Shown here piece by piece: positions 41,771 through 59,327 of a DNA stretch of 64,000 bases. The DNA is from Nocardiopsis sp. JB363. Lineage in GTDB: Bacteria; Actinomycetota; Actinomycetes; Streptosporangiales; Streptosporangiaceae. The stretch covers positions 1 through 64,000 of the forward strand of contig NZ_FRFF01000072.1 of NCBI RefSeq assembly GCF_900143625.1. The letters run 5' to 3'. The notes below the pieces were generated by a model. That model saw only the letters and a list, made by a program, of their open reading frames with translations. It was not told the origin of the DNA and searched no databases. A program made the position numbers and the translations under genes. How positions within the stretch are numbered: position 1 is the first letter of the stretch; each line of letters starts with the position of its first letter.

Positions 41771-43441
41771 TCACAGACTCCACTCCCCTGTCAACGACTC
41801 CAGCAACCGTTCCTGACGCTCTTCGAGCACCTCAGGAGTCCATTCGGAGTGAGTGAGAACCTGGCTGGTGAGCGCGAAGGTCACCACACCGCTCTTCCCC
41901 AAGAAGTACTTCGCCTTCTTCTTGGGGAAGTCGAAGTTCTGGGCTTCGGAGTTCTTTCTCCTGTTGAGCAGGACGAGATTGCCGATGCGATGGGTCCAGT
42001 ACTCACGCGCCGCCTCGTCGAAGGTGGAGACCCACTCCTCGCCTGGTGTCTGCGGAAGAACGTGCTCGACCGTGATGGTCTCGTAGTCGTAGACGACGCC
42101 GGGCTCGTCCGCGAGGATCTCGTCGAGACGCAGTAGGACGTAACGGCGGACCTTAGTGGACAGGTATAGCTCACCATCGAGTTCGGCCCTGGTCGCCCGC
42201 TTCTCCTCTTCGGTGAGATCGAAGGAAAGCGCGTCCAGGCCTTTACCGGAGTTGAGCTCGCGCACGAGTTCGACGTAACGCTGGATCCGGGGCGTGCGAT
42301 AGACCCGGCGGATGAACATGCTCGCGGCCAGGCGTTCCAGTCGGCGGAAGTATCGGTCGAGCCATTCGGGGTCATGGCCGTGGTGGCGCACCGCCCAGAG
42401 CGCGGCCGGGCGCCAGTCGCTGTTGTCGAGCTGTTCCAGTCGCTTGAACCAGGCGTTGACCTTGTCCTGCCCTGTCGGAGAGGAGTAGAGCTGGTCACGG
42501 ATCTGGACATAGGCCTCGGTGTAGGGGATCAGGACGTCGTCGATGAACTCCATCGCCCCCTTGGCGTCAGGGAAGTCAACGAGGACCTGTTCGGGGAACT
42601 CCAGCAACAGTTCCCGCCGTGCGCGCTCACCCGAGAAGATCAGCCGCAGATGCAAGAAGATGTCGGCGAAGTCGTCACGCCCCAGGGTCTCCTCGGCGTC
42701 TTCCCACTTGGCCGCGTACACGCTGCTCAGCTTGGGATCCAGGTCACCGATGATCCGTGCCTTGAAGATGTCGGCCGGAGACAGGTCCAGTCCACGGGCG
42801 TTCATGACGCTGAAGATCCGGTGTGCGCTGTTCAGGTCAGGGGTGCTGACCACGACGAGGTAGGTCCGTTCACCGAGCATCCCGGCGAGTTCCAACCGAC
42901 TTTCTTCGGACCACTCCCGCAGCTTGTCTCGCAGGGCCTTCGCGTTGTCCCGGACCGCCTTTTGGGCGCTGGTCTTCAAGGCCGAGGGAGGAAGGTCAAG
43001 GAGGCTGGACACGGAGCCGGTCGTCTGCACGTGCTTCCGGAAGAATTCCGTGTCCTTGGGGCGTAGCGCCAGCCGGGGTTTGGGGTCCAGCTTGAGCATC
43101 TTGCTGCCCGGCTCCGCCACCATCCCCTCCAGCTCGGTCCGCAGCTTCGCGTCCCCGGCCTGGTCCCGCAGGATCGCGAAGAGGATCGTGAGGGTCGTCA
43201 GTCGCTGCTGACCATCGATGACCTCGGCACGGGCCGACTCCTTGCCTTTGACCAACACGACCGACCCGAGAAAGTAGGGTTCTTCCCCGTCGCGCTCCAA
43301 CGCGTCCGTCAGGTCATCGAGAAGCTGGAGCGCGTCCTCGACCTCCCAGGCATAGGGGCGTTGGTAGTCGGGGATGCGAAAGTCGTAGTCACTGGAGAAG
43401 ACCTTGTGCAGGGGGACCTCGTGGGCTTCGAGTTGTTGCAT
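41771..43441 (-). CDS. DUF262-DUF1524 (GmrSD-type) nuclease
   Basis: A 556-residue single-chain protein. The N-terminal DUF262 has YQRPYAWEVEDALQLLDDL and the NTPase-type signature VIDGQQRLTTLTILFAIL. The C-terminal DUF1524 has the HNH-like VEHVLPQTPGEEW followed by HRIGNLVLLNRRKNSEAQNFDFPKKKAKYF. Such proteins include the type IV restriction enzyme GmrSD, which cuts modified phage DNA. No methylase or partner is near, and it interrupts the alaS-DUF6167 neighbourhood, so it may be a solitary acquired defence gene. Confidence 0.88.
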   Translation of the reverse strand: MQQLEAHEVPLHKVFSSDYDFRIPDYQRPYAWEVEDALQLLDDLTDALERDGEEPYFLGSVVLVKGKESARAEVIDGQQRLTTLTILFAILRDQAGDAKLRTELEGMVAEPGSKMLKLDPKPRLALRPKDTEFFRKHVQTTGSVSSLLDLPPSALKTSAQKAVRDNAKALRDKLREWSEESRLELAGMLGERTYLVVVSTPDLNSAHRIFSVMNARGLDLSPADIFKARIIGDLDPKLSSVYAAKWEDAEETLGRDDFADIFLHLRLIFSGERARRELLLEFPEQVLVDFPDAKGAMEFIDDVLIPYTEAYVQIRDQLYSSPTGQDKVNAWFKRLEQLDNSDWRPAALWAVRHHGHDPEWLDRYFRRLERLAASMFIRRVYRTPRIQRYVELVRELNSGKGLDALSFDLTEEEKRATRAELDGELYLSTKVRRYVLLRLDEILADEPGVVYDYETITVEHVLPQTPGEEWVSTFDEAAREYWTHRIGNLVLLNRRKNSEAQNFDFPKKKAKYFLGKSGVVTFALTSQVLTHSEWTPEVLEERQERLLESLTGEWSL

Positions 43442-50461: not shown

Positions 50462-51210
50462 CTACTCGACCTTCGCGGCCTTCTTCTCGGCCTTCTCCGC
50501 CTCCGGGTCCACGTCCACCCCGGCCTCGGCCCGTTCGGTGTAGGCGTAACCGTCAGCGCGTTGAAGCAACCGAACATGCCGGTGGTGCACGCCTTGAACC
50601 ACCGTTCGACCGCTACGGATGTTGAACTTTCCACTGGCCCTGACCGCGACCCTGCCCACGTGAGTGCCCACCTTCTTGCCACGGGGGACGACGGCCCTGA
50701 CGAAGTCCCCCGTAGCGAAGCCGAAGAAGCGCTTCTGCCTGGGCATGAGCAGCCGAGGAAACCCATACCGGTCGCTCCTGGTTCGGGCATGGCTACCTCG
50801 ACCCGTGCACTCCGCGATCAGGACGGTGGACACGACCTCCCTGACCCCACTCGGCTCACCAAGGGCCAACGCATCCAGTGTGTGCGATTTGGGAAGTCCC
50901 CACCTGTGTCGATTCCACTTCGTGCGGCCACCTGAAGACACACTGGTAGGAAAACCATCCCGCAGCCTCCGCAACAGAGCCCACCTTGTGGACTGGACCA
51001 CCGCCGCGTCCCGAAGCGGCGCCCTCACCTGGGACAGAACCTTGGCAAGAGTCCGTGGTCTTCCCTGAAGGAATTCCTGAAGAGAGCGTGAGTCCTTATC
51101 CTGATTGCAGGGTCCACATGCGATGACCAGGTTCGACAACCGATCCGAGCCGCCTCTGCCACGGGGATGGATGTGGTCGATGTTCAACGGAACACCCGTC
51201 ACGCCACAGT
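50462..51210 (-). pseudogene. iscB: IscB RNA-guided nuclease, 3' part (split by IS)
   Basis: The C-terminal half of IscB, an ancestor-like relative of Cas9. From the insertion point it reads GVTGVPLNIDHIHPRGRGGSDRLSNLVIACGPCNQDKDSR (HNH domain with the DHIHP site), then the RuvC-III segment LPKSHTLDALALGE with its conserved His and Asp, and the C-terminal target-recognition part (YGFPRLLMPRQKRFFGFATGDFVRAVV) with a Lys/Glu-rich end. The 5' half lies at 52196-52799. Joining the halves across one copy of the 3-bp duplication restores a continuous frame. No stop or frameshift other than the insertion is seen. Confidence 0.87.
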
Positions 51211-52195
51211 GAGGTGATCTCAGCGATTTTGCTTCTCGATATTTGTCAGAGCCAACGCCGCTTGCACGATCGAGCCGATCTTGGATGGGCTCATCGTGGT
51301 GTGGCGCAGCACTCTCCATCGGCCGGTAAGCACGGCCATCGCGCGCTCGCCGATGCACCGCAGACCGCGTAGGAGCCGGTTGTGGGCCCGGTCATCGACA
51401 TGCCATCGGTGCTCGTCGACCTGGGGCGGACGCTTGATCGGGGTGCGCACACCCACTCCGGCGCCCTCGTAGCCAGAATCGGCCAGCGTCACCACCCCGC
51501 CGGCCATGGCCTTGTGCAAAAGCGGGAACACGTGCAGGCGGGCGGCGGTGATGTCAGCTGTGGATCCGGGCTCGACCTCAGACACCCACAAAGGTTCTCC
51601 GCGAGCGTCGGACAGGAACTGGATGTTGCCGCCGTGGCGGTGTTTGTGGCCGCTGTACCAAAGGTCGCTTTTGCCGGTGGGGCCCGGCTCCGCGCTACGG
51701 TCGGAAGGAAATAGTTTTCCGTCCAGGATCAGAGGGTCCTGCGGAACCAGACGGGCGTGTTCGAGCACTTCGTACAGGTCGGGGGCTTGGTCGGCCAGCA
51801 CGTCGACACCCTCGTCGATGTAGCGGTAGCCGGTGGCCCGGGAGATGTGGTTGTCCCTGGCCAGCGCTTCGATGGCCGTGTCATCGCGAAACCACCGCAA
51901 GATCAGGACCGCCTGTTTGTAGCAGGTCAGGGAGCGGGTTCCCGTGCGGGTGCCGCGGCGCCGGCGTTCGGCGTTCAGCAGAGCCGAAAGATGCCAAACG
52001 GTGGCCTGGTCCACGTCGAGGGTGGCAGTATAGGGAACCACGTGGAGCCTTTCATGGTGGTCCGGTGCAGATTCGACACCTCGCCTTCTACCTGGGGCTC
52101 CACGTCTGTGTCAGGGGAACGGAAGTTCACCCATGAATGCACTTCTCGTCTTGATTGTCCATTTCCTGCCGATTCCCAGTTACTGAGATCACCTC
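51211..52195 (-). mobile_element. IS5-family insertion sequence (ISL2-like), 985 bp, inside iscB
   Basis: Ends are inverted repeats: GAGGTGATCTCAG at 51211-51223 and its complement CTGAGATCACCTC at 52183-52195. Both sides carry AGT (51208-51210 and 52196-52198), a 3-bp target duplication of the form ANT/ANT complement typical of the ISL2 group. The single transposase gene fills most of the element and its stop codon lies inside one terminal repeat. Removing the IS with one AGT rebuilds Ala-Tyr-Cys-Gly of the IscB HNH region. Confidence 0.9.
51220..52041 (-). CDS. IS5-family DDE transposase
   Basis: A 273-residue transposase with an N-terminal helix-turn-helix (TAIEALARDNHISRATGYRYIDEG) and a DDE core: first Asp in PLILDGKLFPSDR, second in VTLADSGYEGAG, Glu in GERAMAVLTGRW. 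It appears intact, without frameshift. The likely start is the GTG at 52041. The frame is the same direction as the interrupted iscB. Confidence 0.9.
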   Translation of the reverse strand: MVPYTATLDVDQATVWHLSALLNAERRRRGTRTGTRSLTCYKQAVLILRWFRDDTAIEALARDNHISRATGYRYIDEGVDVLADQAPDLYEVLEHARLVPQDPLILDGKLFPSDRSAEPGPTGKSDLWYSGHKHRHGGNIQFLSDARGEPLWVSEVEPGSTADITAARLHVFPLLHKAMAGGVVTLADSGYEGAGVGVRTPIKRPPQVDEHRWHVDDRAHNRLLRGLRCIGERAMAVLTGRWRVLRHTTMSPSKIGSIVQAALALTNIEKQNR

Positions 52196-52799
52196 AGTAG
52201 GCACAGCTTCGATCCCACTTGGCCAGAAGATACTCGCGCGCCTCGAACCCATACAGCGTTCCGCGCTGGTACTCGACACCTTCCAAGGGCCGCCCCGCGG
52301 ACAGAGCATGAGTGTCGAACCGCGCCAACTCCATGTGGACCGTCCTCACCGGCACCCATCGAGCTATCCGCTCCACCCAACTCGCCACACTCTCCACCTG
52401 ATGCCGGAGCGAGGGCGGGAGCCAGCCACGCGCCCGACGCCTGTTGTGGAATCGAGGCCCTCGGTAGCGCAGGTTCCGGCTGCGCCTCGCTCTTCGCAGG
52501 CTGGAGCGTCGCTCCATCTTCTGGCGGATCCACCTGCCTCTATGCTCGATCACGAGGGCGAACCGGCTATGCCTCACACCGGAGCGTGCAGCGAATACCG
52601 CGATCCCCGTGTGTTTGGATCCAGGATCGACTCCGACCTCACAACCCTCCACTTCGGACTCGGCGAGTTCACGGTCCTTGAGCCGGATGACGAATGGTGT
52701 TCGTCGATGCACGACCGCCCGTCCGGCCTTGAGCAACTTTCTGGCCCGGGCCGGACGGCACGGATCCAACGGGCGTCCATGTCTGTCGATCACGAACAC
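52196..52799 (-). pseudogene. iscB: IscB RNA-guided nuclease, 5' part (split by IS)
   Basis: The N-terminal half of IscB: the PLMP-like domain (VFVIDRHGRPLDPCRPARARKLLKAGRAVV), RuvC-I GVDPGSKHTGIAV with the catalytic Asp, the Arg-rich bridge helix (RRSSLRRARRSRNLRYRGPRF), RuvC-II VHMELARFDTH with Glu, and the first HNH Cys in WDRSCAY. The frame then runs into the IS and stops. GTG 52799 is the best start, as IscB usually begins just before this VFV(I/L)D segment; the frame is open to 53039 but that part looks like guide-RNA DNA. Together with the 3' part a product of about 449 residues is restored. Confidence 0.85.
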
Positions 52800-53055
52800 G
52801 GAAGGGTGCACCTCACGGTGCTTCTCCCCGACCTCGATGAAGTCAGGGGTAACGCCGGCACCGCCAGGTGCGGCGGCTCCGGTCTCACCTCGCACATGTC
52901 CCGCAACGGCTGCCGTGGAGTGGCCTCCGAACCCCGTTTCGTCCCTGATCCCGGGGGTGTCTACTGATTCGGATTCCAGAGCAGGCCGCTGGTGAAGCAC
53001 GGCCTGGTGGGTCTTCCCACCTTTACGGAACGTAGCCAATATCAGTCACCTCTGA
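52800..53055 (-). ncRNA. Candidate omega RNA of IscB
   Basis: IscB guide RNAs are encoded just upstream of, and reading towards, iscB. This stretch holds several stable hairpins on the minus strand, such as GGTGGG-AAGA-CCCACC (about 53017-53032), AGGCCG with CGGCCT just after it, and a CCCCG/CGGGG pair near 52935. The guide would be at the 5' end, near or past 53055. Its boundaries are inference. Confidence 0.45.
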
Positions 53056-53562: not shown

Positions 53563-54399
53563 ATGGCTCAGGTGAACATCCGGCGGCACCGGCTCGGCCG
53601 CAAGCTCGCTGAGATCCGCAAACAGGCGGGATTCACACAGGCCCAGGTGGCCGACCACCTGGAGACCCTCCAAGGGTCCTTCGCACGCTACGAACGAGGC
53701 GAGCGCATCCCCAAGCGCGCGGTGCTTCACCAGCTCTTCAAGATCTACGAGGCCTCAGATGACGTTCGGCAGGAGGTCATGTCACTCTTCCGTCTCGCGG
53801 AACAGCCGAGTTGGTGGCATCCCTACCGCGATCTCCTACAGCCCGAATACGCGGCCCTGTTGGACCTGGAAGTGGACGCCTCGGAGATCCGGACCTATCA
53901 GGTGATCGTCCCGGGGCTCTTGCAAACCCCCGAGTACACGCGTCAGATCCTGCTGTACGGCCCGCAGGAGCTCGACGACGAAGAGGTCGAGCGGCGCCTT
54001 GAACTGCGCATGGCACGGCGGCAGATCCTCTCCCATGAGGCAAGCCCTCGTCTCCTGGCCCTCATGGACGAGGGCGCACTACGCCGAATCGTGGGAAACG
54101 AACAGGTGATGCGGGAACAGGTCCAGCACCTTCTGAACGTCTCAGGCCAAGCACAGACCTCGGTACAGATCGTGCCGTTCTCCGCAGGCGCCCACCCGGC
54201 CGCGGTAGGGGGCCTGACCCTGCTCGACTGTGACGATCGTCGAGTGGTCTACGTGGAGACCACCGTGGGTGAGCTGTTCTTGGACAAACCCACCGAGGTC
54301 ACCACCTCCGCTCGTGCTTTCGAGAGCCTGCTGGGCTTCGCGTTGAGTGTGAAAGAATCCCGTGAGCTGATGGAGAAGTACGTCGAGGAGTACTCGTGA
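53563..54399 (+). CDS. XRE-family regulator with DUF5753
   Basis: A 278-residue protein: an N-terminal HTH (LGRKLAEIRKQAGFTQAQVADHLETLQGSFARYERGER) and a C-terminal DUF5753 domain (WWHPYRDLLQPEYAALLDLEVDASEIRTYQVIVPGLLQTPEYTR). This pairs with the DUF397 gene that overlaps its end by 4 bp (GTGA). Such pairs are abundant in actinobacteria and regulate development or act like toxin-antitoxin-type modules. It may control neighbouring accessory genes; that is inference. Confidence 0.9.
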   Translation: MAQVNIRRHRLGRKLAEIRKQAGFTQAQVADHLETLQGSFARYERGERIPKRAVLHQLFKIYEASDDVRQEVMSLFRLAEQPSWWHPYRDLLQPEYAALLDLEVDASEIRTYQVIVPGLLQTPEYTRQILLYGPQELDDEEVERRLELRMARRQILSHEASPRLLALMDEGALRRIVGNEQVMREQVQHLLNVSGQAQTSVQIVPFSAGAHPAAVGGLTLLDCDDRRVVYVETTVGELFLDKPTEVTTSARAFESLLGFALSVKESRELMEKYVEEYS

Positions 54400-54602
54400 G
54401 GATCAAATCGAGCTTCAGCGGGCAGAAGGGGGAGTGCGTGGAGGTGGAGCAGGTCGGCGACGAGTTTCACGTCACGGACAGCAAGCACCCCGAACGTCCC
54501 GCCCACGTGTACACCCGTGGGGAGTGGCGTGCGTTCCTCCAGGGTGCACGTAACGGCGAGTTCGACTTCGACGTGTTCGATGTAGAGGGCGTCCAGGCCT
54601 GA
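54396..54602 (+). CDS. DUF397 protein
   Basis: A 68-residue DUF397 protein, with the typical SSFSGQKGECVEVEQVGDEFHVTDSKHPERP and a final GEWRAFLQGARNGEFD. It starts at a GTG overlapping the XRE stop. DUF397 partners bind and modulate their XRE regulators. Confidence 0.9.
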   Translation: MRIKSSFSGQKGECVEVEQVGDEFHVTDSKHPERPAHVYTRGEWRAFLQGARNGEFDFDVFDVEGVQA

Positions 54603-54651: not shown

Positions 54652-55380
54652 CTATCTCACCGCGAGGTAGACGACGAAGTTGTACCAGCGGAACACCTCA
54701 TCCACCCGAGAGAACCCCGCCTTGAGCAGTGCGTCACGATTCTCCGAGACACGGTACGGAACGAGGACGTTCTCCAGGGCTTCCCGCTTCTTCGCGATCT
54801 CGGTCCGGGAGTAGCCGCTGCGCTCCTTGTAGTCGTGGTAGAGGTCGATGTAGACCCGGGAGAGGTCGTTGTCGTCTCCAAGCACCTTCTCCCCCAGCAG
54901 CAACGCCCCGCCTGGTTCGATGGACGCACAGATCTTCGCCAGGACCGCGTCGCGCTGAGGCGGTCGAACGAATTGCAGGGTGAAGAGCATGATGACGACT
55001 CGTGCACCGGGGAGATCCGGCAGACATTCCACCGAATCCTCAAGGATGTCGACCTCGTGGCCGAGACCCTCCGCTCGAATCTTCTCCCGACACCGTGCCC
55101 GCATCGCGGCCGAAGGCTCCACACCCACGAACTTCACCCGGGTCTTCGGAGAGATCGCCTTCATCAGTCGGACCAACGTGTTCCCCGTGGAGGAACCCAC
55201 GTCGTAGACGGTCCCACCCTCCTCTTCGAGGAAGCTTCGACTGAGTTCGACGGACATCCTCTGGATCTCGTCGTAGAACGGGATGCTGCGGTCCAGCATG
55301 TCGTCGAAGACGTCCGCCACACCCTCATCGAAGACGAAGTCGCCCACCTGGGTCCTGTCCACGAAGATCTCGTCACGCAT
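54652..55380 (-). CDS. CmoA-like carboxy-S-adenosylmethionine synthase
   Basis: A 242-residue class I methyltransferase-fold protein that follows E. coli CmoA along its length: DFVFDEGVADVFDDMLDRSIPFY, the SAM loop VYDVGSSTGNTL, IMLFTLQFVRPPQR, PGGALLLGEK, and the KREALENVL segment with Arg199, part of the CmoA site that binds the prephenate-derived carboxylate. CmoA turns SAM and prephenate into carboxy-SAM, used for wobble uridine modification in proteobacteria. Here no CmoB is near; instead it overlaps the MccB-methyltransferase gene by 8 bp. In Bacillus and Yersinia microcin C-like clusters, carboxy-SAM feeds carboxymethylation of cytosine. That role is proposed here. Confidence 0.85.
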   Translation of the reverse strand: MRDEIFVDRTQVGDFVFDEGVADVFDDMLDRSIPFYDEIQRMSVELSRSFLEEEGGTVYDVGSSTGNTLVRLMKAISPKTRVKFVGVEPSAAMRARCREKIRAEGLGHEVDILEDSVECLPDLPGARVVIMLFTLQFVRPPQRDAVLAKICASIEPGGALLLGEKVLGDDNDLSRVYIDLYHDYKERSGYSRTEIAKKREALENVLVPYRVSENRDALLKAGFSRVDEVFRWYNFVVYLAVR

Positions 55381-57196: not shown

Positions 57197-58969
57197 CTAG
57201 CTCCTTTTTTTGTCTCCCTGAGGGATGACCGTTCGGATGTGCACGTCACTCAGCTGCTTCTCAGAGACGGCCGCGGGGGCACCCATCATGAGGTCCTGGG
57301 CGTTCTGGTTGAGCGGGAAGGCGATGGTTTCGCGGATGTTGGGCTCATCGGCCAGCAACATGACGATCCGGTCGATGCCAGGAGCGATGCCACCGTGAGG
57401 CGGAGCACCGAACTTCAGGGCCTTGAGCATGCCGCCGAACTCGGCTTCGACGGCGTCCTTGTCGTAGCCGGCGATCTCGAAGGCCTCGTACATGATCTCG
57501 GGCGAGTGGTTCCGGATCGCGCCGGAAGACAACTCCACACCGTTGCAGACGATGTCGTACTGCCAGGCCAGAATGTCCAGAGGGTCCTTGTTGAGCAACG
57601 CGTCCATCCCGCCCTGCGGCATGGAGAACGGGTTGTGGCTGAACTCGATGTCGCCCTCGTCGGAACGCTCGAACATCGGGAAGTCCACGATCCAGCAGAA
57701 GCGGTAGACCTTCTCCTCCGCCAGGCCCGCGCGCTTACCGGCCTCGACACGGACCGGGGCCATGATCCGGTTGATCTCGGCCTCGTCCTCACTGGCACAG
57801 AAGAACAGGCCATAACCGGGACCGGCGCCGAGGGTGGTCAACAGCTCGTCAGAGATTTCGGTGACGAACTTGGCAATGGGACCGGTGAGTTCGTTGTTCT
57901 CCCCGACCTTGAGCCAGGCCAGTCCCTTGGCGCCCTGTTCGACGGCGAAGTCGCCGATGCCGTCGTAGAACTTGCGCGGCTGCCCGCCCACGTTCGGCAC
58001 GGCCAAGGCGCGGACCTTCTTACCGGCGAAGGCGCGGAAGTCGGTCTTGTCGAACAGCGCGGTGACGTCGAGCATCTTCATCGGTACTCGCAGGTCCGGC
58101 TTGTCGGTGCCGTACCACTCCAGGGCGTCCCGGTAGGCGATGCGCGGGTAGGGAGAGGTGATCTCCCAACCGGTGGAGAACTCGCGGAAGACGTCGGTCA
58201 TGACCTTCTCGATGACCTCGAAGACGTCCTCCTGCTCGACGAAGCTCATCTCGACATCGAGCTGGTAGAACTCACCGGGCGAACGGTCCGCGCGGCTGTC
58301 CTCGTCCCGGAAGCAGGGGGCGATCTGGAAGTACCGGTCGAACCCGGCGATCATGAGGAGCTGCTTGAACTGCTGCGGCGCTTGGGGCAGGGCGAAGAAC
58401 TCGCCGGGGTGCAGGCGCGAGGGGACCAGGAAGTCGCGAGCACCCTCAGGGCTGGAGCTGGTGAGGATCGGGGTCTGGAACTCATTGAAGCCCAGGTCCG
58501 TCATCTTCTTACGGATGGCGGCCACGACCTGCGAACGCAGCATGACGTTGCGGTGCATCCGCTCACGACGCAGGTCCAGGAAGCGGTAGGTCAGGCGACG
58601 CTCTTCGGAGGTGTTGTCCTCGGGGAAGACCGTGAGGGGAAGCTCCTCGGTCGTTCCAAGGATCTCCACCTCCGCCGCCTCGATCTCGATCTCACCGGTG
58701 GGCAGGTTCGGGTTGATGTTCCCGGCGCTACGCGCAGAGACCTCGCCCGTGACCTGAATCACCGATTCCTTGGAGATTCGGCTGAGTTCCTCGAACACCG
58801 GGGATTCGGGGCGAGCCATGAGCTGCGTGACGCCGTAGTGGTCGCGCAGGTCGACGAAGAGCAGACCACCGAGATCCCGGCGGTTGTGCACCCAGCCAGA
58901 AAGGCGCACCTGCTGCCCGACGTGCTCCTTACGGAGCTGACCACACGAATGAGTCCTGTAACGATGCAT
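57197..58969 (-). CDS. aspS: Aspartyl-tRNA synthetase
   Basis: A 590-residue bacterial-type AspRS: OB anticodon domain ([26 protein letters not shown]), class II motifs [24 protein letters not shown], the GAD insertion, and the motif 3 region [39 protein letters not shown]. It resembles Streptomyces AspRS, so it may be the only, housekeeping copy. Yet the next gene begins on the base after its stop and a precursor-like gene lies just upstream. Processed microcin C inhibits AspRS, so this enzyme could be the target or a tolerant, self-protecting version. The ribosome site is weak. Confidence 0.95.
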
Positions 58970-59114
58970 GAGTTACCAAGTCCACTAACTACACGGCTGG
59001 GTGAGGATGCCGGGGAGCCCGCGGCCGGGTCCGGCTGAAGGCATGGCATGCCCTTGAACAACTGGGATCCTACCGCCAACCACGCCACCTGGCCTCCTGG
59101 TTCAAGTGGCACAC

Positions 59115-59138
59115 GGACCCCCGAAGGCCCGGGGGTCC
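59115..59138 (-). terminator. Hairpin between the precursor gene and aspS
   Basis: GGACCCCC (59115-59122) pairs with GGGGGTCC (59131-59138), 11 bp past the 21-codon gene. No T-run follows. In the E. coli microcin C operon a stem-loop between mccA and mccB favours precursor transcripts; this may play the same part. Confidence 0.6.
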
Positions 59139-59149
59139 GATCCCGGCCG

Positions 59150-59215
59150 CTAGTTGGCGACCACGGTGGTGCTGCCCTTGACCTTGCGGACCGGGGTCAT
59201 CGAGATACGGCGCAT
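59150..59215 (-). CDS. Microcin C-like precursor peptide, ends in Asn
   Basis: A 21-codon gene: the product starts MRRISM, has the basic core PVRKVKG and ends TTVVAN, followed by TAG. GAGGAG lies 6 bp before the ATG, an excellent ribosome site in a region where nothing else is coded. MccA peptides are short, keep their initiator Met, need no leader removal, and must end in Asn, the residue MccB modifies. Its size, basic character and terminal Asn fit that, and it lies upstream of aspS and the MccB gene on the same strand. It is followed by a hairpin and preceded by a palindrome-rich promoter. Too short for standard gene finders. Confidence 0.72.
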   Translation of the reverse strand: MRRISMTPVRKVKGSTTVVAN

Positions 59216-59266
59216 GCGGCTCTCCTCGGGCTGTATCGAACACCGCCGGGATCGACGGCACTCGAA

Positions 59267-59327
59267 ACGCTACGCCAGCATGCTGGAATATTCCAAGGCT
59301 TGGAAGGAAACCATATCTCTGAAGATA
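59267..59327 (-). promoter_or_regulatory. Palindrome-rich promoter of the precursor gene
   Basis: On the minus strand TTGGAA (59291-59296) and TAGCGT (59267-59272) lie 18 bp apart, giving a start about 45 bp before the ATG. Overlapping perfect palindromes cover it: CCAGCATGCTGG (59275-59286), TGGAATATTCCA (59284-59295) and TTCCAAGGCTTGGAA (59291-59305), plus TATCT/AGATA (59314-59327). One or more regulators probably act here. Confidence 0.55.

Follow-up and report, generated by a model that had tools for sequence, protein, structure and literature searches.

Does a 21-codon frame on the minus strand of a Nocardiopsis contig encode the precursor of a microcin C-like compound, and what is the place of the aspartyl-tRNA synthetase (AspRS) gene that lies between it and the gene of its putative modifying enzyme? 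The window analysed here is the whole 64,000-nucleotide stretch from Nocardiopsis sp. JB363 (contig NZ_FRFF01000072.1, positions 1 to 64,000), and the features discussed are collected in the table below. A sequence-only reading had proposed the frame as mccA, an ATG frame of 21 codons with GAGGAG 6 bp before the start and a VVAN-stop ending, and both the frame and these two signals were found as described, the stop being TAG. The 64 kb contain 43 short ATG frames (10 to 45 codons) preceded by a Shine-Dalgarno-like motif, and it is the sole one of them that ends in Asn. A gene of this size would probably be overlooked by automatic annotation and gene callers. We conclude that the frame is very likely to be the mccA gene of a microcin C (McC)-like cassette, as supported by an intact Asn-ending frame in all loci identified with the MccB-methyltransferase fusion, a frame that was not found in genomes of the order without this fusion.

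Table. Features of the putative microcin C-like cassette and its surroundings in the window
Feature	Position	Strand	Basis
mccA, 21-residue precursor MRRISMTPVRKVKGSTTVVAN	59150..59215	-	conserved in four loci; co-occurrence with MccB fusion
Shine-Dalgarno GAGGAG, 6 nt 5' of mccA ATG	59222..59227	-	read from sequence
Promoter-like TTGGAA-18 nt-TAGCGT upstream of mccA, overlapping palindrome GGAATATTCC	59267..59296	-	read from sequence
Strong hairpin stretch directly 3' of mccA stop, probable terminator or attenuator	59089..59149	-	folding, z -2.5
aspS, type A aspartyl-tRNA synthetase, 1.77 kb	57197..58969	-	NCBIfam aspS far above cut-off
mccB, ThiF-type nucleotidyltransferase with C-terminal methyltransferase domain, 607 aa	55373..57196	-	Pfam; structure matches
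mccS, CmoA-type carboxy-SAM synthase, 8-nt overlap with mccB end	54652..55380	-	TIGR00740; structures
XRE/DUF5753 regulator and DUF397 gene, convergent with mccS	53563..54602	+	Pfam

Homologous loci were searched for in 347 genomes of the order and by a scan of GTDB contigs for the MccB-methyltransferase fusion. The full-length fusion was recovered from three of the 347 order genomes (the window genome, G034 and G076), and the GTDB contig scan added a further locus, L082, from a MAG labelled Dactylosporangium. Scanning genome contigs with a single protein query gave no match, and an alignment query then gave two loci; no fusion was found in the viral contigs scanned, and the class and phylum samples yielded no additional one at strict cut-offs. 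The fusions of G034, G076 and L082 are 74%, 60% and 61% identical to that of the window, respectively, and with G076 belonging to another genus of the same family, the four loci span three genera. Mis-binning of the L082 contig is possible, as it comes from a MAG, and its aspS gene is frameshifted as assembled.

In each of the loci, an mccA frame lies about 180-260 bp upstream of aspS. The G034 peptide is identical to that of the window at 21 of 21 residues, while those of G076 (MRRIKMSRVRKTKGSTTVVAN) and L082 (MRRITLVRITQSKGTTSVVAN) are also encoded by 21 codons and end in VVAN. MRRI, KG, one T and VVAN are invariant in the four peptides (pattern MRRI...KG.T.VVAN). Compared with its G034 counterpart, the window frame has four base differences, all of them synonymous and at third positions; identity is 94% within the frame and about 72% and 58% over the 100 bp on either side. 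Homologous loci lacking the frame, carrying a broken one or ending in a residue other than Asn would have refuted the sequence-only reading, and none was met, since G034, G076 and L082 all have 21 intact codons with a terminal Asn. The RKVK core, the conservation of which was to be checked along with that of this residue, varies (RKVK, RKVK, RKTK and TQSK). A degenerate codon pattern for KG(S/T)TTVVAN-stop was present in three of the 347 order genomes, exactly the carriers of the fusion, and its reversed control gave no match in the 347 genomes. The frame was also absent between the MBL and aspS genes in 14 relatives without the fusion, nine of which have the same AspRS type and keep the sequence just 5' of aspS, the mccA block being missing. 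A chance reading frame without function, in favor of which one could invoke a length of only 21 codons, is rejected by the conservation across three genera, the exact co-occurrence with the fusion and the fact that the two closest loci differ only synonymously, which leave it virtually no room.

The order on the minus strand is an MBL-fold hydrolase gene (60155-59355), mccA, aspS, the ThiF-methyltransferase fusion gene and the CmoA-type gene. The claim that the frame sits upstream of the MccB gene is thus right as to the side, but not as to direct adjacency, as the 1.77-kb aspS gene intervenes; the CmoA-type gene that follows mccB had likewise escaped the sequence-only reading. As to the promoter proposed for mccA, a promoter-like pair was seen, and both hexamers and their spacing also occur in the G034 locus, but a consensus promoter scan of the window reported no promoter for the TTGGAA-18-TAGCGT pair. 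The palindrome overlapping this pair is a possible operator, and no copy other than the palindrome itself was found in the window. The hairpin claimed to follow the frame is present, and each of the other three loci has one of unrelated sequence at the same place. For the 61 nt that follow the stop, the folding energies are -34.4 (window), -33.9, -44.7 and -41.6 kcal/mol, with z-scores of -2.5, -3.8, -9.3 and -6.8 in the same order, and equal stability is reached by about 1.2%, 1.4%, 0.03% and 0.2% of 61-nt stretches drawn at random from the 64 kb. Since the sequences are unrelated, it is apparently the structure that is conserved. A terminator scan of the window did not list the hairpin because it lacks a T tract, and for the same reason factor-independent termination is not certain. 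In E. coli mcc, a hairpin terminator between mccA and mccB gives an excess of mccA transcript (PMC6495379), an arrangement that the present loci resemble.

A position upstream of aspS with a hairpin after the frame would also be compatible with a regulatory leader or attenuator of aspS, whose peptide would sense charged tRNA or ribosome stalling rather than serve as an MccB substrate. We judge such a leader, or a T-box, to be very improbable. The frame contains no Asp codon, it was found solely with the MccB fusion, and it is missing in the 14 relatives that carry aspS at the same locus, among them the nine that share both the AspRS type and the sequence 5' of aspS. Moreover, its amino acids, terminal Asn included, are conserved across genera, and an RNA-family search detected neither a T-box nor any other family.

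The enzymes encoded downstream are in agreement with the mccA reading. In MccB, Pfam recognizes a ThiF domain (1.4e-49) and a Methyltransf_23 domain (6e-16, residues 381-500), and the closest solved structures are those of E. coli MccB (about 1e-41). The window protein retains the NLTRQ, DVG..K and SAD.P motifs and both CxxC pairs, and its alignment to PaaA extends into the N-terminal domain. Its AlphaFold model (mean pLDDT 48.6) was too poor for use. The mccB start codon abuts the aspS stop, with the mccB ribosome-binding site inside the last aspS codons. MccS scores 215 bits against the TIGR00740 cut-off of 193 and matches the CmoA structures 1im8 and 4gek over most of its length. The XRE/DUF5753-DUF397 gene pair adjoins the cassette in the window, G034 and G076 and is farther away in L082; none was seen in the regions examined of relatives without mccB, and the pair possibly regulates the cassette.

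The nearest described system is that of Nocardia vaccinii, in which a 21-residue Asn-ending MccA is cytidylated by a bifunctional MccB that also uses carboxy-SAM to carboxymethylate the cytidylate (PMC9239234). The present cassette shares with it the 21-residue Asn-ending precursor (MccA-Nva MKIVLKLKRIVRGAGPIIVSN), the C-terminal carboxymethyltransferase domain of MccB and MccS. By contrast, the exporter gene mccC, the aminopropylation genes mccD and mccE1 and the immunity peptidase gene mccG of N. vaccinii are missing beside the window cassette, and aspS, which lies between mccA and mccB here, is not described inside the N. vaccinii cluster (PMC9239234). Precursors of 17-56 residues go with a separate MccB clade (PMC6495379). 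The peptidyl-carboxymethyl-cytidylate McC systems of Bacillus amyloliquefaciens and Yersinia pseudotuberculosis likewise combine a long precursor (19 and 11 residues, respectively), a carboxymethyltransferase domain in MccB and an MccS-type enzyme supplying the carboxyl donor, but differ in peptide sequence and gene order, and their description mentions no AspRS gene within the cluster (PMC12250964). E. coli microcin C7 (mccABCDE, mccF) has in common with the present cassette the MccB chemistry family and a leaderless Asn-ending precursor; it differs by a 7-residue precursor, an unfused MccB, an adenylated product and a cluster that includes genes for export and immunity. By its parts list, the enzyme set fits the carboxymethyl-cytidylate branch of McC, the choice of nucleotide, the carboxymethylation and an antibiotic activity being inferred by analogy. 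The mccA-aspS-mccB-mccS order was not found described in the literature searched, an earlier listing in supplementary tables of mining work not being excluded, and it is best read as a new arrangement within a known antibiotic family.

Plasmid pRlX2 of Rhizobium beringeri (L097:481-8392) carries YcaO, MoaD/ThiS-like, MoeB-like, methyltransferase and LanM genes and looks like a RiPP cluster mixing several maturation chemistries.

An exporter gene is part of the minimal McC gene set (PMC9239234). The frame lists of the window, G034 and G076 revealed no exporter gene next to the cassette, so that this element of the set is lacking at the locus, and neither mccD/E nor genes for MccF, MccG or MccH were seen in those lists beside the Nocardiopsis-type cassettes. 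In L082 (4799-6897), the genes for an amino-acid permease and a GNAT acetyltransferase overlap; the latter ends 83 bp upstream of mccA, and the two are a possible export and immunity pair. Elsewhere in the window genome (G000, C77:839-1867; L094:312-1903), a second MccB-like gene, unfused, overlaps a gene for a HIT-domain (MccH-like) protein, an association that resembles the mcc-like cluster of Nocardiopsis kunsanensis. No short Asn-ending frame with a ribosome-binding site was detected near it, nor did the roughly 900 bp that precede the unfused MccB-like genes in the genus yield one. Since HIT hydrolases are able to detoxify processed McC (PMC7157772), immunity could also act in trans.

AspRS is the target of microcin C-type compounds, and its gene is found between mccA and mccB in four of four loci, which all share the order mccA-aspS-mccB-mccS. 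AspRS is encoded by a single copy in the window genome and in G076, and G034 gave one match at the strict cut-off. The Dactylosporangium MAG (G701) that holds L082 has a type A AspRS in the cassette and a second, divergent type B enzyme elsewhere, and for this reason aspS may travel with the cassette. On linkage, the inclusion of aspS in the cassette is supported; the insensitivity of its product is a hypothesis. No AspRS residue was found that separates cassette carriers from relatives without mcc genes, and the window enzyme nests among those of mcc-free relatives in the tree, so that an adapted cassette AspRS is not demonstrated. At the same locus, 24 of the 40 genomes of the genus, the window's included, carry type A (87-94% identical to the window enzyme) and 11 carry type B (about 45%), the other five falling below the cut-off. 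In the class sample, type A was otherwise met only in one group (f20, probably Streptomyces; 67-70%), most genomes having type B. Aminoacyl-tRNA synthetase genes carried along with a pathway that mimics their aminoacyl-adenylate are known from albomycin (SerRS) and from indolmycin (TrpRS); there, the synthetase is a second or resistant one (PMC9032320), whereas the window genome has no AspRS gene besides that of the cassette, and insensitivity of this enzyme is hypothetical. Neither a second or resistant synthetase for McC nor AspRS-based McC immunity was found reported in the literature searched.

Directly observed were the conservation of the frame and its co-occurrence with the fusion, the hairpins, the order of the genes and the families of their enzymes; the following scheme goes beyond this. 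By inference from studied relatives, mccA would have a promoter of its own, and most transcripts would end at the hairpin, giving more peptide than enzyme. The fused MccB would then activate the leaderless 21-mer at its C-terminal Asn and attach a nucleotide there, probably CMP, through a phosphoramidate link, and the trimmed product would mimic aspartyl-adenylate and block AspRS. Taken together, and by analogy with the described systems, the steps from activation by MccB onwards appear probable. The cassette AspRS may in turn provide self-protection, either as an extra supply of target or as an insensitive target. This last step rests on linkage alone: aspS accompanies mccA and mccB in all four loci, which represent three genera. 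Such linkage suggests target-based microcin C immunity, and we put the step forward tentatively, as rather less than probable.

The linkage may also have a simpler cause, namely that mcc genes were inserted around a housekeeping aspS, immunity being encoded away from it, for instance by the HIT hydrolase gene that overlaps the second MccB-like gene of the window genome. In the Nocardiopsis-type genomes aspS indeed occupies its normal place, preceded by its own upstream sequence, and the window AspRS is not distinct from that of mcc-free relatives. On the other hand, one gene order is shared by all four loci, among them L082, which is outside the usual neighbourhood and whose MAG has the second divergent AspRS, and mccB begins directly at the aspS stop. 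A bystander aspS is thus a serious possibility, short of being the expected one. The absence of a nearby exporter in three loci would, for its part, suit a peptidyl-nucleotide that is not exported but acts on the producer's own AspRS as a regulated translation brake during stress or phage attack, with the XRE-DUF397 pair as switch; the target gene inside the cassette is the sole AspRS gene of the window genome, and the pair adjoins three loci and is farther off in the fourth. XRE-DUF397 pairs are, however, common in actinomycetes, exporters may be encoded elsewhere, L082 has a permease gene upstream, and the known relatives are secreted antibiotics. We therefore consider such an internal role improbable.

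Across the genus, the DUF349-MBL-aspS locus (L034-L062, L064-L077) carries, depending on the species, one of two AspRS types that are about 45% identical. Because these share one locus within one genus, an in-place replacement of the essential aspS is suggested. The aspS linkage in the microcin C-like cassette suggests a reason for two so different enzymes at one locus among related Nocardiopsis: a mobile mccA-aspS-mccB-mccS unit with an insensitive type A AspRS would have replaced the ancestral type B in place in some of them. This proposal is speculative and, on present evidence, unlikely; if true, the AspRS split of the genus would be a trace of microcin C immunity. Under the mccA reading itself, the locus adds a conserved precursor family, likely missed by gene callers, to the small class of Trojan-horse antibiotics, and MccB and the MccA peptide form an enzyme-substrate pair directly testable in vitro.

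Elsewhere in the window (Pfam; 50462-53039, minus strand), a DDE transposase gene has an RRXRR (IscB-like) frame on one side and an HNH frame on the other, which looks like an IscB-type gene interrupted by an insertion. A GmrSD-type restriction endonuclease gene with both domains lies near alaS (41771-43441, minus strand).
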